NCBI GenBank assembly: GCA_022426245.1
Contig: JAKMDW010000009.1
Location: forward strand, 1 to 33,862
Length of the DNA stretch: 33,862 nt
Source: Alphaproteobacteria bacterium
GTDB lineage: Bacteria > Pseudomonadota > Alphaproteobacteria > RS24
Reading direction: 5' to 3'
Shown here: one piece after another, positions 13,786 through 27,648 of the stretch
How the letters are laid out: every line of letters begins with the position of its first letter
How positions within the stretch are numbered: the stretch's first letter is position 1
Made by a program: the position numbers and the translations under genes
Notes under the pieces: generated by a model
The model's database searches: none
Seen by the model: the letters and a program-made list of their open reading frames with translations, nothing else
What the model was told of the DNA's origin: nothing

Positions 13786-13931
13786 GAGATTCTCCCTTGC
13801 CAAACAGCACCATTTATCGGCTCAAATGGCAAGAGCCACGATGACGTTATTTAAACGGATTTCGGCTGAAAAGCAGTCTCGACAGCAGCCATTGCCAGAC
13901 ATAGACTGAGCATCACTCGGGAGGAAACCGC

Positions 13932-14456
13932 ATGTCTGACACTTCGGCGCACACTAACGGCAAAGCCCTGCAACAGGGTTTGATTGTTTTAGGGCTGGTT
14001 TTATTCGGTGGCTATTTGCTGTTCGAGCGCGGCCTTGTTGGCGTGCTGTTGGAGGGCGACAAAAGCCGCCTGTCTTGGCTTATTCTCGCTATCTGGCTGG
14101 GCATGAGCGGCCGCTGGCTTTTCTTGCTGCGGCGCATGGAGAGCACAGACGAGATTGCCGAAGAGGATATGCTGCGCTGGCTCAACCATGGTTGGTTTGC
14201 CGCCGATAGCGTTTTGAAAATCGGCCTTTTGGGCACGATTATCGGTTTTATTCTTATGCTCGCGCCGATTGGCGAATTGACCAGCTTTGACGCCGCCAGC
14301 CTACAAAATGCGCTGGCCGCCATGTCTGCCGGTATGGCGGTAGCGCTTTACACAACGCTGACCGGCCTGATTGCCAATATCATTCTGCGCTTTCAGTTCC
14401 AATTTTTGGCCGACGCCATGCAGCAACGCCTGATAAGCCGCGAAGAGGCCGCATGA
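13932..14456 (+). CDS. MotA/TolQ/ExbB-like proton-channel membrane protein
   Basis: SVLKIGLLGTIIGFILML ... ALYTTLTGLIANIILRFQFQFLADAM resembles TolQ/ExbB TM2-TM3 signatures; 174 aa. Confidence 0.75.
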   Translation: MSDTSAHTNGKALQQGLIVLGLVLFGGYLLFERGLVGVLLEGDKSRLSWLILAIWLGMSGRWLFLLRRMESTDEIAEEDMLRWLNHGWFAADSVLKIGLLGTIIGFILMLAPIGELTSFDAASLQNALAAMSAGMAVALYTTLTGLIANIILRFQFQFLADAMQQRLISREEAA

Positions 14457-15976: not shown

Positions 15977-18217
15977 TCAGTTGAGGTTGAGCTTGCTGGT
16001 TTTGTCGGCGTCTTTTTTGGCCGCTTCCTGCACTTCATAGTCTTGCCACGCACGCAGATTGATGAAGGCATAAATATCCTCGACATCTTTCTCGCTCAGA
16101 CGGTCGGCAAAGCTCGACATTCCGCGATCTTCCAGCACGCCCTCCAGCACGATTTCCTTAAACATGCGATGCGTTTGCTCGCTCATTTTGCGCAAATCAG
16201 GCACTGCCGCGCCCCCAATCACAGCAATGCCGTGACAGAAAGTGCAGACCTCGTGATATAGCTCCATGCCATTGTCAATCGAGGCTTCTGTCGCCTCAAT
16301 GGTCGGCGGCAGCGGAATGTCACGCGCCCAATGGTCAGGCTGCTCAATCGACCCGCCGCCATTGAGCGTAAACACCAGCAGACGACCGAAATTGCCCCAT
16401 TTATTCGAGGCCGGCATAGCCGACCCGTCGGTCAGACCGCCTGCCCCACCGGAGCCGACTTGAATGGCGACATATTGCACGCCGTCAATCGCATAGGTGA
16501 TGGGGGGGGCAATGGTTGAGGTGTAGGTGTTGACCTTCCACAATTCTTTACCGGTGCTGGCATCATAAGCGACGAAATAGCCATCGCCATTACCCTGAAA
16601 CACCAAACCCGCTTCGGTTGACATGGTGCCGCCATTCCAGTGCATCGAATGTTCGCGCATCCAATGGGTTTTACCGGTCAGCGGGTCAAACGCCGTGATG
16701 TAGCCCTTATTGGCCGGGAAGTCCGGATGCTCGGCCAAGAGCGGCAGCAAACGACCAAACTCAATGCCGGTGTTCCAGCCGCCTTCAATATATTTATAGC
16801 GACCGGTCGCTTTGAAATCATGGTCAACATCAAACACCAGCGGGCTTTCCATTGCCGGAATGTAAACCAGACCGGTGTTCGGGTTGAAGCTCATCGACTG
16901 CCAATTATGACCGCCAAGCGGGCCGGGCAAAATCCATTGCGATTTATTGCTCTCGGCAAAATTGCGCGAGTCATTTTCCACCGGACGACCAGTTTCCATA
17001 TCAATATGGCTGGCCCAGTTAACCGTCACATAAGGGTTGGCGCGCAGCAATTCGCCGGTTTCGCGGTCCAACACATAGAAGAAACCGTTTTTCGGCGCTT
17101 GCATAATCACTTTGCGGTCGCGCCCGTCAATTTCCAAATCGGCCAGCATCATGTCCTGCACGGCTGTATAGTCCCATGTGTCACCCGGCGTGGTTTGATA
17201 GTGCCATTTCTTGCGGCCGGTATTCGGGTCAAGTGCCACAATGGAAGACAAGAACAGATTGTCGCCGCCACCCGGGGAGCGAATGGAGCGCGTCCAGGGG
17301 CTGCCATTGCCGACGCCCAAAAAGACCGTGTCGGTATCGGGGTCATAAACAATGGAGTTCCAGACAGTGCCGCCACCGCCGATCTTCCACCATTCGCCAC
17401 CCTTCCAAGTCGGGGCAGCCTCGGCCATTTCGGGATGCTCAAACGGTTTGTTCGGGTCACCCGGCACCGTGAAGAAGCGCCAGTCTTGCGCGCCGGTTTT
17501 CGCATCATAGGCCGTCACATAACCGCGCACACCATATTCGCCACCACCATTGCCGATAAACACGCGGCCATTGGCAACGCGTGGTGCACCGGTGATGGTG
17601 TAGGCTTTGGTGCGGTCGATAATCGTATTGATGCGCCAAATTTCTTCGCCGGTTTCGGCATTCAGCGAAATCAAATAGCCGTCAAGGCTGGCGACGTAAA
17701 CCGCGCCGTCATAAACCGCAACCCCGCGATTGACGACATCGCAACACGCCTTGCGCGCCCAATCGCCCGGCACTTCGGGGTCATAAGACCACACCTCTTC
17801 ACCGGTCGTTGCATCAACCGCGTAAACCACGCTCCAAGAGCCGGTCATATACATAATGCCATCGACCACAATCGGTGAAGCTTCCAGCCCGCGCGTTGTA
17901 TACATATCAACGGAAAAAGCCAGTTCGAGGTCTTTGACGGTTTTCTTATTAACCTGCGTCAATGGCGAATGGCGCTGCTCGGCATAAGTGCGGCCATAAG
18001 CCAACCAGTTACCCGGTTCGCTTTCCGCATTAATGATGCGGTTTGTGTCGATTTTACCGATCGTCGCGCTGGCTGATGCGTTGCCCGCGCTGATATTGCC
18101 CGAACTGCTATCGCTGTTTTGACTGACCGTGGCGGCTATCATGCCCAGCGCAATCAAGCCGAGGGCAACCACATTTACGATTGTGCCTTGTTTTTGATCC
18201 AATGTTGGATGAGCCAT
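15977..18217 (-). CDS. PQQ-dependent quinohemoprotein alcohol dehydrogenase (type II; C-terminal cytochrome c domain)
   Basis: Quinoprotein propeller motifs (NWLAYGRTYAEQRHSPL, CCDVVNRG vicinal cysteines, GDTWDYTAVQDMML, GGHNWQSMSFNPNTGLVYIPA) and heme c site CTFCH near the C-terminus; N-terminal hydrophobic anchor; SD GGGAGGA. Confidence 0.94.
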   Translation of the reverse strand: MAHPTLDQKQGTIVNVVALGLIALGMIAATVSQNSDSSSGNISAGNASASATIGKIDTNRIINAESEPGNWLAYGRTYAEQRHSPLTQVNKKTVKDLELAFSVDMYTTRGLEASPIVVDGIMYMTGSWSVVYAVDATTGEEVWSYDPEVPGDWARKACCDVVNRGVAVYDGAVYVASLDGYLISLNAETGEEIWRINTIIDRTKAYTITGAPRVANGRVFIGNGGGEYGVRGYVTAYDAKTGAQDWRFFTVPGDPNKPFEHPEMAEAAPTWKGGEWWKIGGGGTVWNSIVYDPDTDTVFLGVGNGSPWTRSIRSPGGGDNLFLSSIVALDPNTGRKKWHYQTTPGDTWDYTAVQDMMLADLEIDGRDRKVIMQAPKNGFFYVLDRETGELLRANPYVTVNWASHIDMETGRPVENDSRNFAESNKSQWILPGPLGGHNWQSMSFNPNTGLVYIPAMESPLVFDVDHDFKATGRYKYIEGGWNTGIEFGRLLPLLAEHPDFPANKGYITAFDPLTGKTHWMREHSMHWNGGTMSTEAGLVFQGNGDGYFVAYDASTGKELWKVNTYTSTIAPPITYAIDGVQYVAIQVGSGGAGGLTDGSAMPASNKWGNFGRLLVFTLNGGGSIEQPDHWARDIPLPPTIEATEASIDNGMELYHEVCTFCHGIAVIGGAAVPDLRKMSEQTHRMFKEIVLEGVLEDRGMSSFADRLSEKDVEDIYAFINLRAWQDYEVQEAAKKDADKTSKLNLN

Positions 18218-18403
18218 TTAAGCGTCCTCCCAATGACAACTTCCTCCGATAAACTCTAGAAAAAAAAGCCCCCATGCCACAAGAAGAAATCATCCCTTCC
18301 AAGCAGTTTTTACCCTGCGGCATATTCCCCGCCTTTCGCGTCATATTTGTATTTTGCCGCCAGCGCATTAAAACCTATGTCATCAACGTCAAAGGTTTTG
18401 GTT

Positions 18404-21622: not shown

Positions 21623-22428
21623 TGACCCCCATGCTCATCACCGCCATTGCCCTGGCTATGCTGGCCGGCCCGCTGGGCTGTTTTGTCGTCTGGCGGCGTA
21701 TGGCCTATTTCGGCGATGGCCTCGCCCATTCAGCTCTATTGGGCGTCGCGGTCGGCCTTGTCATCGGTATGAGCAATCAACTGGGCATGATTCTTGTGGC
21801 GATTTTATTCGCCATAATGCTGCTCTGGCTGCGCGCCCAACGTTTGCTGGCAACCGACACGCTGCTGGGTATCTTGGCGCATGCCGCCTTATCACTCGGC
21901 GTCGTCGCAATGGCCTTATTGGGGGTAGAAGATGCCGAGTTGCATGATTACCTGCTCGGCAGTCTCGACAGTGTCACCGCCGATATGCTGGTTTATGTGG
22001 TTCTCGGCTGTGGCCTGTCGCTGGGACTGTTAATGCGCCTCTGGCCCGGCTTATTGCTGATGACCTCCAGCGAGGAATTGGCGCACGCCGAGGGCGTGCC
22101 CGTTCGCACTTATGAGTTTTTGCTAATGCTTCTGCTCGGCGTTTTGGTTGCCGCCGCAATCCAAATTGTCGGCATTTTGTTGATTACATCGCTGCTCATC
22201 ATCCCCTCCTCAACAGCTCGACTGTTTGCCAAACGACCGGAAACAATGGCGATTGGCGGCAGCGTGATGGCGGCTTTGTGCATGTTGGGCGGCCTGCCCT
22301 TTGCCACGGCGATAGACGTGCCGCTTGGTCCGGCTATCGTGACGCTCAGCGTCACCTTGTTTATGGCCGTATTGACCGGGCGGCTTCTCATCGACCGTTT
22401 CAGTAGCCGGTTCAAAAAGTCTAATTAA
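21619..22428 (+). CDS. znuB: Zinc ABC transporter permease
   Basis: ABC-3 family permease: LAGPLGCFVVWRRMAYFGDGLAHSALLGVA, QIVGILLITSLLIIPSSTARLFAKRPE; ATGA overlap with znuC. Confidence 0.94.
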   Translation: MMTPMLITAIALAMLAGPLGCFVVWRRMAYFGDGLAHSALLGVAVGLVIGMSNQLGMILVAILFAIMLLWLRAQRLLATDTLLGILAHAALSLGVVAMALLGVEDAELHDYLLGSLDSVTADMLVYVVLGCGLSLGLLMRLWPGLLLMTSSEELAHAEGVPVRTYEFLLMLLLGVLVAAAIQIVGILLITSLLIIPSSTARLFAKRPETMAIGGSVMAALCMLGGLPFATAIDVPLGPAIVTLSVTLFMAVLTGRLLIDRFSSRFKKSN

Positions 22429-24247
22429 CCCAAATCGGCGACGAATAAGCGCGCTCTTGAATGGTCGTCGCAACACCCGGGCGCGGCGGCACACCGGCGC
22501 GCAACGCATCCCAGCTTGACCAACGACAGGACGGGTTTTCCATCACGCGAACATAATAAAAGGCCTGCTGGTCTTGTTTATATTCAGGGTCTCGCCATAC
22601 CGTCTTCAACGCGTTGGCTGATGTTTTGGCATCGGCTTTGCAGGTTTTGAGGTCAACCGTCGCACCATTATCGGGGCAGCGATGATTGCGACCGGGCTTT
22701 TTGCCACCCGCGCAAGCGATATCAAAAACCTTCTCGGCACTCTGCCCATCGGGCTTCAGCCAGCCCTTAACGATTTGCAGGCGCTGCAAGCCATAGGATT
22801 TAGCATCGCGCATCGCCCAAACCAAAAACGCGGGCGACCGGCGGCCTTTGACCGTCAAATCACCCCCCATTGACACACCCTCTTTATAAGCGCGCTTCAC
22901 CATATCCGTGCGGTTTTCGATATTGCGGCTGAAATTGGCCGAGGCGAAAAAACGGAGCTTTATGCGCGGGCCGGTCGTGGCATAGGTTTCTTTGCGGCGC
23001 ATGGCGTCAAAAATATCGCCGCGCGTATTGTTATCAGACCAAACCGCCGCCAGCCCTGACGCGCCCCAAGTGTGGAAATTATTGACATTATATGTGCTGC
23101 CATCGGGGTTAGGCTTGGCCATTGGCACAGAGCCGCGCAATGCTGAATTGGCGTCGATCAGTCCGATTTTTGACCAGTAATTATGCTCGTCAAACGCCCC
23201 CGCGCCGACATGCGTATCGGACGCGCCGATAAGGCCGAATTTATAGGGGTTTCCTCTTCCCTTCGCGGCCATTTCCAGCCCACGCAAATAGGCTTGGCGC
23301 ACATAGGAGCCATCGGGCTTGCTCTCAATCCAAGCGCCCACGCGGAACGGCATAATCTCGAAATCGGCAAATTCATCATTCGGTGACAAAAGCGGATGGG
23401 TTTCGCTATCGCCTTTAACTTGCGTCACTTCGACAATCGGCTCATTGCGCATACGGGTTTCGGCATATTCCATATCCATAGCGCTGCCGTCCCATTTTTT
23501 GGTCATGAACATCAGCCCGTTAGAGCCGTTGGCGTTGTGCGGAACGGCAATCGTGTCCATGCCCTTCTCGCGCAAACCGTCCATCCACGCCCAAAGGTCT
23601 TCCGGATTGGGTGACATAATGCGGCTGAACGGCAAGGTCGGCGCTTTGGCGCCTCGGAAAAACACATTGCGGTGCAGGTTTTGATTTTGCGGGCCGGAGG
23701 TATACTCATAGCCGATAAGCGTCGTGAACTTGCCCGGCTCATTATGCCGATTGGCGGTTTCGACAATCTCCTGCCACGCCGATTTCATAATCTCGACATC
23801 AACCAAATCATCGGGCTTGTCACTTTTAGTCAGATAGGGAAACAGTTTTTGAAAGGCCGTAAGGCGGTCTGCCGGCGTCTTGGCTTTACGCATTTCCAGC
23901 GAAATCGGGTGCTTCGACACCGGCAATTTCGGGTCGTGCATAGCCGGCAACATGCCGAGATAAATCGCGTGGTCGGTTACAGACTGAAAATCCAACGGCT
24001 CGGTCAGCGTCATATCAAAACCGGCGGGATGTTTAATCGTCTCGCCCTTAGCATAACGATAGGCATCGTCAGGCGTGTTACGATTTCCGAAAACATAACT
24101 ATCGAAAGATAAAACAGTATGCAGATGCGTCTCACCGAAAAGCACTTGTCGATTTTCGGGTCGACTCTCCTGTTCCGATGCGGCCGAAAACGGCGCAATC
24201 GAAAACGAAATAGCGGCAAAAACCGCCAAAAACTTAAGCTTCTTCAT
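22421..24247 (-). CDS. DUF3604 domain-containing secreted protein (PHP-like N-terminal motif)
   Basis: Signal peptide MKKLKFLAVFAAISFSIAPFSAASEQ; VLFGETHLHTVLSFDSYVFGNRNTPDDAYRYAKG, GLIGASDTHVGAGAF. ATG at 24247 preferred over 24361. Confidence 0.9.
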   Translation of the reverse strand: MKKLKFLAVFAAISFSIAPFSAASEQESRPENRQVLFGETHLHTVLSFDSYVFGNRNTPDDAYRYAKGETIKHPAGFDMTLTEPLDFQSVTDHAIYLGMLPAMHDPKLPVSKHPISLEMRKAKTPADRLTAFQKLFPYLTKSDKPDDLVDVEIMKSAWQEIVETANRHNEPGKFTTLIGYEYTSGPQNQNLHRNVFFRGAKAPTLPFSRIMSPNPEDLWAWMDGLREKGMDTIAVPHNANGSNGLMFMTKKWDGSAMDMEYAETRMRNEPIVEVTQVKGDSETHPLLSPNDEFADFEIMPFRVGAWIESKPDGSYVRQAYLRGLEMAAKGRGNPYKFGLIGASDTHVGAGAFDEHNYWSKIGLIDANSALRGSVPMAKPNPDGSTYNVNNFHTWGASGLAAVWSDNNTRGDIFDAMRRKETYATTGPRIKLRFFASANFSRNIENRTDMVKRAYKEGVSMGGDLTVKGRRSPAFLVWAMRDAKSYGLQRLQIVKGWLKPDGQSAEKVFDIACAGGKKPGRNHRCPDNGATVDLKTCKADAKTSANALKTVWRDPEYKQDQQAFYYVRVMENPSCRWSSWDALRAGVPPRPGVATTIQERAYSSPIWVN

Positions 24248-24323
24248 AACACCCCCCAAAGTTATTTTAATGTAACGCTTTTTTAACCATCCAAAAGGTA
24301 AAACGATACGTATTAAAAACGAG

Positions 24324-24400
24324 ATGTTTGTCGTCCTCCCCGACAAATATGTTCCTAACATGCCCTCGGCGTTCCTCCCACGTCGAGGGCTAATTTTTAC
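24324..24400 (+). ncRNA. Candidate cuckoo/CcsR-type sRNA: two stem-loops with identical anti-SD loop motif
   Basis: Stem-loop 1: ATGTTTGTCG-TCCTCCC-CGACAAATAT (24324-24350, 10 bp with one G-U). Stem-loop 2: GCCCTCGGCG-TTCCTCCCA-CGTCGAGGGC (24362-24390, 10 bp with one G-T), then TAATTTTTAC. Both loops contain TCCTCCC. Confidence 0.6.
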
Positions 24401-24419: not shown

Positions 24420-25289
24420 TTATTGACATAAGGCCATTAAATTATACGCAATTTGGGCGGCGGTAAAATCGCTGGCCGGTTGCCCCGCCACGGGCGCCAG
24501 TTCCATCACATCGATACCGACGCAACGCCGCCCTTTCAGCGCGCTTGCCACCAAATCAAGGGCTTGATAATAGCCCAAGCCTCCGGGGACAGGCGTGCCG
24601 GTCGCCGGTAAAACGGACGGGTCGAGACCATCCAGGTCAAAAGTAACATAAATATTTTCGGGAAAGTCATCCGGCAGCGTGACGGCTGAAATATTGCCGC
24701 GCACCAGTTCCGGCGCGTCATAAGTCATCACCCCATGCGCGCGCCGCGCCGTTTCTTCTTCTTCAGCCAGGGCCCGCACACCGAATGAGGCCATCGGCAA
24801 ACCCTCTTGCGCCAATAAATACATGACGCTGGCATGCGAATGTTTGTGCCCTTGATAGGCATTGCGGAAATCGGCATGCGCATCAATATGCACCAAACCG
24901 AGCGGTGCATCTAACGCATCAACCACCCCCATTACCGCGCCATAGCTGACAGAGTGTTCCCCGCCAAGCGTGACCGGTATATGCCCGCGTCCTGAAATGG
25001 CGCCGCTGAGCGCGCGCAAATCGGCCATCACGGCCTCAATATTTTGGGCGCAATCAATCGGGGCATGCGTAAATATGCCATCGGCGCATGGCACTTGACC
25101 ATTGGTCAGACGCTCAAGCTGATGACTGGCGGCGATAATGGCGGCAGGCCCATTGGCCGCGCCCGTGCCATAAGACACAGTGGCTTCGAGCCCGCACGGC
25201 ACAACCTCAAAGCGCGCGCTCGCCATGTCATTTTCGGCGGCGCTTAATTCTTCTCCAAGAAACTGGTCATGTTTTTGGTGCGACCTCAA
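24420..25289 (-). CDS. speB: Agmatinase (ureohydrolase family)
   Basis: Metal-ligand motifs GGEHSVSYG, VHIDAHADF, YVTFDLDGLDPS...ATGTPVPGGL. Confidence 0.92.
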   Translation of the reverse strand: MRSHQKHDQFLGEELSAAENDMASARFEVVPCGLEATVSYGTGAANGPAAIIAASHQLERLTNGQVPCADGIFTHAPIDCAQNIEAVMADLRALSGAISGRGHIPVTLGGEHSVSYGAVMGVVDALDAPLGLVHIDAHADFRNAYQGHKHSHASVMYLLAQEGLPMASFGVRALAEEEETARRAHGVMTYDAPELVRGNISAVTLPDDFPENIYVTFDLDGLDPSVLPATGTPVPGGLGYYQALDLVASALKGRRCVGIDVMELAPVAGQPASDFTAAQIAYNLMALCQ

Positions 25290-26440
25290 GATAAGCGCCC
25301 TTCAAAATCTTCATAATCGAATTGTTTAATAATGCGCAGCGCGTCAGTATCGCTGTTCCAAATCGCCAACGACGGCAAATGTGCGCCGTTAAACGTCGTT
25401 GTTTTGACCATTGTGTAATGCGCTTGGTCAAGAAACGCGATGCGTTGCCCGCTTTGCGGCACGCCGTCAAATTTATAACTGCCGATAATATCGCCCGACA
25501 GACAGCTTGCGCCGCCCAGCCGCACATCCAGCGCGCCTGCCTCGCCCAGCATGGCCGGACGATAAGGTGCTTCAATCACATCCGGCATATGGCAGGTCGG
25601 GGAAATATCGGTAATGCCGACCGGCCCGTTATTTTCCGTCACATCGAGCACTTCACCGACCAGAATGGCCGCATCGAAACCAATCGCCGTGCCCGGCTCG
25701 ATATAGGTTTGCACGCCGAGATCTTCAGATAATTCCTTCAATATCTCAATCAGTCCGCCACGGTCATAATCATTTCGCGTCACCAAATGACCGCCGCCCA
25801 GATTAAGCCATTGATATTTGCCCTTATGCGCCTCAAGAAATGGTCGCACCGCCGCAATTGTGCGTTTTAGCGGTTCCAACCCCTGCTCGCATAAATTGTG
25901 CAAATGCAGGCCCGAAATATTATCGGGCAATGTGTCGAGCTTCGAAATCGGGTGACCAAGCCGCGAGCCGACTGCACACGGGTCATATAGCTCAATCTCG
26001 GCTTCTGAATGTTCCGGGTTAATGCGTAACGCAAGGTCCGCGCCGGCCGCTTTGGCCTGTGCAGAATAACGCTCAAACTGCGCCGTGCTGTTAAACACAA
26101 TATGGTCTGAAAGCGCTGCAATTTCATCAAACTCTGACGGCTTAAAAGCCGGCGCATAGGTCGCCAATTCACCGCCGAAATGGTTGCGCGCCAATTTGGC
26201 TTCCCATAAGCCCGACGCGCATGTGCCGGTCAGATGGTCGCTGATAAGCGGCGCAACAGCCCACATGGAAAACGCTTTCAGCGCCAGTAAAACCTTGGTG
26301 TCCGCCGCCTCGGAGACGCCGCGCAGCACTTCCAAGTTTTCGCGCAGGCGCACTTCATCAATGACAAAGCAAGGCGAGGGGACGCGGCTTAAATCAAAAT
26401 CGGCAAATCGGCCAGCGCCGGAAGATTGCGTTCTCAACAT
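25286..26440 (-). CDS. nspC: Carboxynorspermidine (carboxyspermidine) decarboxylase
   Basis: Fold-III PLP decarboxylase: PSPCFVIDEVRLRENLEVL, LLALKAFSMWAV, LRINPEHSE, LHLHNLCEQG, GASCLSGDIIGSYKF. Confidence 0.93.
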   Translation of the reverse strand: MLRTQSSGAGRFADFDLSRVPSPCFVIDEVRLRENLEVLRGVSEAADTKVLLALKAFSMWAVAPLISDHLTGTCASGLWEAKLARNHFGGELATYAPAFKPSEFDEIAALSDHIVFNSTAQFERYSAQAKAAGADLALRINPEHSEAEIELYDPCAVGSRLGHPISKLDTLPDNISGLHLHNLCEQGLEPLKRTIAAVRPFLEAHKGKYQWLNLGGGHLVTRNDYDRGGLIEILKELSEDLGVQTYIEPGTAIGFDAAILVGEVLDVTENNGPVGITDISPTCHMPDVIEAPYRPAMLGEAGALDVRLGGASCLSGDIIGSYKFDGVPQSGQRIAFLDQAHYTMVKTTTFNGAHLPSLAIWNSDTDALRIIKQFDYEDFEGRLS

Positions 26441-27648
26441 CAGTCAAACTCCGGCGCTTCAGCCAGCTCATCATACTGCCACGCCAAGCCATGCGCGTTC
26501 AGCATGTCCATAAACGGGTCAGGGTTAAGCTGCTCAAGGTTAAACACGCCCGGCTGCATCCATGTGCCGTCGAGCATTAAAGCGGCGCCAATCATCGCTG
26601 GAACGCCGGTGGTATAACTCACCGCCTGACTGCCGACTTCTTCAAAACAGGCTTCATGATCGCAATTATTATAGAGATAAACCGTGCGGGGCCGACCCTC
26701 ATGCGTGCCGCTGACAATATTACCGATACAGGTCTTGCCGATGGTGGTTTTGCCTAAATCACCCGGATTGGGCAACACGGCTTTCAGAAATTGTAATGGC
26801 ACAATCTCGCGACCCTCATAAAGCACCGGCTCAATCGCGGTCATGCCGACATTTTGCAGCACCTCCAAATGCGTCAGATAGGCATCGCCGAAGGTCATCC
26901 AAAAGCGCGCGCGCTCAAGCTCCGGAAAATGCTTGGACAGGCTTTCCAATTCCTCGTGATACATCAGATACATATTGCGCGGGCCGACTTCGGGAAATTC
27001 GAAGCTCTGCTTGTGAGAGAGCGCCGGTGTCTCGACCCATTTTCCGTTTGCCCAGTGCCGCGCCGGTGCCGTGACCTCGCGAATGTTAATCTCAGGGTTG
27101 AAATTTGTAGCAAAAGCCTGCCCATGATCGCCGCCATTGCAGTCAAGAATATCGAGCGTGCGCATGTTTGAGACCAAATGCTTTTGAATATAAGCGGTGA
27201 ACACATTGGTGACGCCCGGGTCGAAACCCGAACCGAGCAGTGCCATCAGCCCTTTTTCAGCAAAGCGCTGCTGATAGGCCCACTGCCAGTGATACTCAAA
27301 CTTGGCCTCATCGCGCGGCTCATAATTCGCCGTGTCGAGGTAATGCACGCCGGTTTCCAGACACGCATCCATAATCGCTAAATCCTGATATGGCAGCGCC
27401 AGATTGACCACAAGGTCAGGCTCGACTTGGTTGATAAGCGCAATGGTTTCAGCCGTATTATCGGCATCAACTTGCGCAATATTTATAGATTTACCGGTGC
27501 GTGTCGCAACCGCTTTTTGAATATCTTCACAAGGCCCCAAGCGTCGGCTGGCGAGGGTAATATCGTTAAATATATCAGGCAGCATTGCCATTTTATGCAC
27601 TGCTACCGAGCCGACGCCGCCGGCTCCAATCACCAGAACAGTCGCCAA
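26440..27648 (-). CDS. Carboxynorspermidine/carboxyspermidine dehydrogenase (saccharopine dehydrogenase-like)
   Basis: VLVIGAGGVGSVAVHKMA; VVNLALPYQDLAIMDACLETGVHYLDTANYEPRDEAKFEYHWQWAY; TGATG overlap with nspC. Confidence 0.93.
   Translation of the reverse strand: MATVLVIGAGGVGSVAVHKMAMLPDIFNDITLASRRLGPCEDIQKAVATRTGKSINIAQVDADNTAETIALINQVEPDLVVNLALPYQDLAIMDACLETGVHYLDTANYEPRDEAKFEYHWQWAYQQRFAEKGLMALLGSGFDPGVTNVFTAYIQKHLVSNMRTLDILDCNGGDHGQAFATNFNPEINIREVTAPARHWANGKWVETPALSHKQSFEFPEVGPRNMYLMYHEELESLSKHFPELERARFWMTFGDAYLTHLEVLQNVGMTAIEPVLYEGREIVPLQFLKAVLPNPGDLGKTTIGKTCIGNIVSGTHEGRPRTVYLYNNCDHEACFEEVGSQAVSYTTGVPAMIGAALMLDGTWMQPGVFNLEQLNPDPFMDMLNAHGLAWQYDELAEAPEFD

Follow-up and report, generated by a model that had tools for sequence, protein, structure and literature searches.

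The αr14 RNA NfeR1 (Smr14C2, SmelC397; Rfam RF02344) of Sinorhizobium is built of hairpins in tandem, whose stems are hypervariable and whose anti-Shine-Dalgarno (aSD) loops are identical. There are three hairpins, and each exposes the nonamer CCUCCUCCC. NfeR1 is intergenic and has its own promoter, with LsrB/NtrC sites upstream, and it acts on defined mRNAs (PMC10746234). Through its aSD loops it pairs with translation initiation regions, which are thereby silenced (PMC10746234; PMC7143759). RSs0680a (RS0680a) of Rhodobacter sphaeroides forms two stem-loops, each of them with an aSD loop (PMC3927594). In the same species, CcsR1-4 form a tandem array downstream of the DUF1127 gene ccaF1, under an RpoHI/RpoHII promoter, so that the hairpins follow a small-protein gene (PMC10253847). 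AbcR1/2 (αr15), which are also alphaproteobacterial, bind Hfq and carry aSD motifs in unpaired regions (PMC7143759).

We analysed a locus in a stretch of 33,862 nucleotides (the window) from a 1.8-Mb alphaproteobacterial bin that is about 90% complete and belongs to the marine PS1 clade. The agmatinase encoded in the window shares 84% identity with its counterpart in a PS1-clade bin and 76-91% with those in several Rhodobiaceae/Alphaproteobacteria bins. The best reading is that the RNA of this locus works like the αr14/cuckoo RNAs, as a variant with its own promoter and without a DUF1127 partner. We predict, with a probability of about 0.85, that the locus is a stand-alone, independently promoted, trans-acting aSD sRNA of ~75-80 nt, which is encoded on the + strand and is ended by its second hairpin.

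The predicted sRNA gene (24322..24399, +) comprises two hairpins and a terminator. Hairpin 1 (24324..24350) has 10 bp and the loop UCCUCCC (24334-24340). Hairpin 2 (24362..24390), the terminator stem, has the identical loop (24373-24379) and lies 11 nt further on. The first-pass annotation had described this pair correctly, except that the second stem has 11 bp rather than 10. It was also right about an intrinsic terminator: hairpin 2 is a strong terminator-like match on the + strand (11 pairs, 8 GC) and is directly followed by the U-rich tail TAATTTTTA (24391..24399), a U-run found in 12/12 genus orthologues. The + strand RNA folds with -32.3 kcal/mol (z -5.6), and both hairpins are recovered; none of 200 shuffles folds as well. 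The arrangement was also compared with chance, counting stems of at least 9 bp with loops of 6-8 nt, paired within 90 nt and having a common loop hexamer. On the + strand of the whole window there are 22 hairpins of this stem and loop size, and the only nearby pair with a common loop hexamer is that of hairpins 1 and 2. In 120 first-order Markov strands, no loop hexamer was common to both members of any of the 93 nearby pairs.

Among the described RNAs, RS0680a has the layout closest to that of the window RNA. AbcR1/2 have three stem-loops with two CU-rich motifs, a layout unlike the one found here, and are absent from the Rfam matches. At the gathering score, the Rfam search returns nothing at the locus. 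The best match is αr14, over the whole length, with 33.9 bits (E 2e-4 in a 901-base search), which is below the gathering cut-off of 58.8 bits. As αr14 is defined by the identical nonamer in each of three hairpins, while the window RNA has two hairpins with the heptamer UCCUCCC, and as the gathering score is not reached, the locus is not filed as αr14. The cuckoo family, with its SmelA075, SmelA099 and RS0680a modules, is delimited by a variable number of hairpins, aSD loops and free stems, and the locus agrees with this (two hairpins, covarying stems), but its loops read UCCUCCC or CCCUCCC instead of the full nonamer. RNAs of the CcsR/CIN1 type are transcribed together with a DUF1127 (CcaF) gene. 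The window RNA is not part of a tandem array, and no DUF1127 gene occurs in 12 genus genomes, which bears out the suspicion that it is an orphan. Other Rfam matches at the site (tmRNA, 13.8 bits; snoZ30, 17.6 bits) are far below the cut-off, and an αr14 match elsewhere in the genome (C81, 17 bits) was judged to be a short chance hairpin.

By blastn, the element is found in seven other genomes of the genus, and hairpin 2 only in an eighth. A covariance model (R1), built from an alignment of eight orthologues, matches the locus in 12/12 genus genomes searched, and wherever the flanks were checked the locus sits between the agmatinase and DUF3604 genes. In the alignment, 8/20 pairs and 13 cells are changed on both sides. 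Paired cells amount to 96.3% (91.0 +/- 1.1 when shuffled) and the covariation score is 0.329 (0.193 +/- 0.027 when shuffled); when the pairing partners are slid, the paired cells collapse to 34-46%. Each hairpin contributes: 3/9 pairs are changed on both sides in hairpin 1 (93.1% of cells paired) and 5/11 in hairpin 2 (98.9%). While the stems change, the eight orthologues keep the core CCUCC in loop 1, and CCUCCC in loop 2 is invariant among them. The proposal that selection acts on the loops, made when only the two differing stems and their identical loops had been seen, agrees with these orthologues, in which the stems covary and the CUCC(C) loops are retained. It does not extend unchanged to loop 1 in a sister subclade (G001, G004 and G010), where hairpin 1 is different and weaker and has the loop UCCUCA. 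In a further genus genome (G005), the hairpin 1 loop contains CCCUC. Beside the agmatinase gene of other genera (L056, L059, L060, L063 and L069), one or two hairpins are found, most with CUCCC- or CCUCC-type loops, and several of these relatives have CUCCC-type loops only. In view of these weakened or altered loops, the target rule may drift. Matches of R1 at the family level (G022:C122) and class level (G036, G031) were judged by eye to be ordinary terminators or chance; G032 gave a weaker match. The pattern TCCTCCC-N-TCCTCCC proved too unspecific outside the genus.

The structured RNA is that of the + strand: read in this direction, the stem cells contain 13 G·U against 3 A·C, and this excess, together with the conserved U-tail, assigns the strand. 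The combination of covariation, retained loops, U-run, G-U excess and αr14 as the top match speaks for the orphan or divergent cuckoo-like aSD sRNA that the first-pass annotation had proposed.

Upstream of the sRNA lies a conserved promoter-like block that had previously been missed. It contains a putative -10 element (GTATTA, 24310..24315, +), which lies at a CGTAT conserved in 12/12 orthologues in the alignment and reads GTATAG in the sister subclade; we infer a transcription start at about 24322. A consensus scan of the locus for a canonical sigma-70 -35/-10 pair found none. Further upstream is an element resembling a CtrA box (GTAA-CGCTTTT-TTAAC, 24272..24287, +). The CtrA box consensus is TTAA-N7-TTAA, from which the element deviates by one mismatch. 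It is present as NTAA-N7-[TC]TAA in 12/12 genus orthologues, and the exact consensus occurs in four of these (G001, G004, G005 and G010) and at the other-genus loci L056, L059 and L060. Its spacing to CGTAT is 22 nt in 10/12 orthologues according to a script; for the other two (G011, G008) the script picked up another CGTAT, and in the alignment they have this spacing too, without gaps. Within the window, the 17-mer box sequence has a single match at up to three mismatches. In any single region, a box of this kind has a local probability of 1-5% of arising by chance, so that its recurrence across diverged lineages is unlikely to be accidental. A CtrA orthologue is encoded in this genome (G000:C40; 52% identity to a Caulobacter-type CtrA query) and in most genus members. 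Transcription of the sRNA may be set by a CtrA-type response regulator acting at the -35 region. We treat CtrA control as a hypothesis only, because G003, G007 and G008 (each at least 90% complete) keep the box, while a CtrA orthologue was not found in them, although in incomplete bins the absence of ctrA, or of a paralogue, from a single genome is weak evidence. CtrA may have been lost in a subclade.

Both hairpins display an aSD copy, which makes the silencing of mRNAs by covering their ribosome-binding sites probable. Each UCCUCCC loop would pair with GGGAGGA-type Shine-Dalgarno (SD) sequences of selected mRNAs, probably assisted by Hfq, which is encoded in 8/9 genus genomes and was not found in this incomplete bin. 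By analogy with NfeR1, pairing would block 30S binding and speed mRNA decay. As modules, hairpins 1 and 2 are probably redundant. Strong SDs that match the loops do exist: the pattern GGGAGGA-N3-10-ATG has 19 sites in the genome, compared with 2 for a reversed-pattern control, and most of the 19 precede plausible genes. According to Pfam, the products of these genes include an AMP-binding ligase, an enoyl-CoA hydratase, an amidase, a PQQ dehydrogenase, an aldehyde dehydrogenase, a GST, MnhB, a YCF48-like protein and GreA. Two candidate targets are in the window, a small membrane-protein-like gene (ORF 13932-14456; site at 13919-13934, +) and a PQQ dehydrogenase gene (site at 18215-18231, -).

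The aSD heptamer as such is unspecific. As the loops copy the core of the 16S aSD, the RNA might instead be a general translation attenuator that mimics the 3' end of 16S rRNA and so sequesters a large number of SDs, or else a ribosomal protein, with no defined regulon. Dosage would be added by a second locus of this genome (see below), which has several further hairpins of this kind. We consider this unlikely, given the defined mRNAs on which the related NfeR1 acts (PMC10746234) and the finding of only 19 perfect GGGAGGA start sites in the genome.

The hairpins could also be nothing but terminators: hairpin 2 would then be an intrinsic one whose CU-rich loop is accidental, and hairpin 1 would be incidental. 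Hairpin 2 would indeed serve well for this, the same loop occurs in another terminator-like hairpin of the genome (L002, near an ABC-F-like gene), and in L063 and L069 the locus apparently follows a + strand gene. In the window, however, there is no + strand gene directly upstream that could be terminated: the DUF3604 gene (PF12228, E 2.5e-222; 22421..24247) is a divergent neighbour on the minus strand. The agmatinase/arginase-family gene on the other side (PF00491, E 1.4e-56; 24420..25289, -) is convergent, and the minus strand lacks a U-run after hairpin 2 that would serve the agmatinase operon. This operon continues with saccharopine-dehydrogenase-like and decarboxylase-like genes, and the row (24420-27648, -) may be a carboxyspermidine-type polyamine operon. 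Since hairpin 1 is conserved and covaries by itself, the loops are kept while the stems change and the promoter-like block is held at a fixed spacing, a purely terminating function is quite improbable.

Finally, the hairpins might belong to the minus strand, as the 5' leader of the DUF3604 gene that exposes GGA motifs to CsrA/RsmA, a caveat of the first-pass annotation that is excluded for practical purposes: the loops do read GGGAGGA on that strand, which also folds better than shuffles, if less significantly than the + strand (z -3.7), but csrA is absent from 9/9 genus genomes tested, several of them at least 90% complete (the control genomes of E. coli, B. subtilis and T. maritima were all positive), L063 and L069 retain the locus beside the agmatinase gene without DUF3604 as a neighbour, the U-run and the G-U cells fit the + strand, and the DUF3604 gene has its own SD (GGGGGG) right before its ATG at 24247.

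The same genome contains a second, larger aSD locus that the earlier reading had missed (L096:1334-1575; G000:C100, about 18143-18384). It consists of a reading frame for 40 amino acids (MLKQIFSLTSFVSAPALASALLALYGVALVTHTITGINIV) and four hairpins, with the stop codon inside the first hairpin. The loops are of the CCUCCC or CCCUCC type, the last hairpin is a terminator with the loop UCCUCCC, and the fold has a z-score of -8.7. The flanking genes, named by reading their translations, are TetR-like and tsaD-like. This sister locus is present in 9/12 genus genomes and was not found in G007, G008 and G011, where the caution on incomplete bins applies. In G001, G004, G005 and G010, not every hairpin keeps its aSD loop. 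For several copies, αr14 is again the best Rfam match. In other genera of the family (L142, L143 and L144), the conserved small-protein gene and its hairpins recur in this layout upstream of a tsaD-like gene, with four hairpins in G016 and G019 and two with aSD loops in G013. As in ccaF1-CcsR, the hairpins stand behind a small-protein gene (PMC10253847), but the protein of ~40 residues is unlike CcaF1: it is not a DUF1127 protein, and no Pfam or NCBIfam family was found for it. The sister locus is thus a possible parallel to ccaF1-CcsR with an unrelated protein. In the literature cited here, this locus appears to be unremarked.

A single long hairpin occurs beside an ABC-F-like gene, in the opposite reading direction, in this genome (L002:1505-1537, G000:C57) and in G002 and G007. 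The loop at these three sites (L002, L106 and L103) is TCCTCCC or CCCTCCC, and L106 matches αr14 at 33.1 bits. This is possibly a third aSD RNA, or a terminator only.

The window RNA would extend cuckoo/αr14-style regulation to the marine PS1 clade with its small genomes (1.2-1.8 Mb), in which sub-threshold Rfam scores would hide such RNAs. It would represent a natural, minimal two-hairpin version of this style, with a testable link to CtrA, and the sister locus would be a second example of aSD hairpins behind a small-protein gene, here with an unrelated protein. It is tempting to speculate, although we hold it rather doubtful in its entirety, that the PS1 clade has a two-part aSD system, in which a CtrA-controlled orphan two-hairpin RNA is accompanied by a family-wide operon of a hydrophobic ~40-aa protein and several aSD hairpins that replaces DUF1127/CcaF-CcsR with an unrelated partner. 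If this is true, an orphan RNA under CtrA would tie the masking of SD sequences to the cell cycle or to differentiation.
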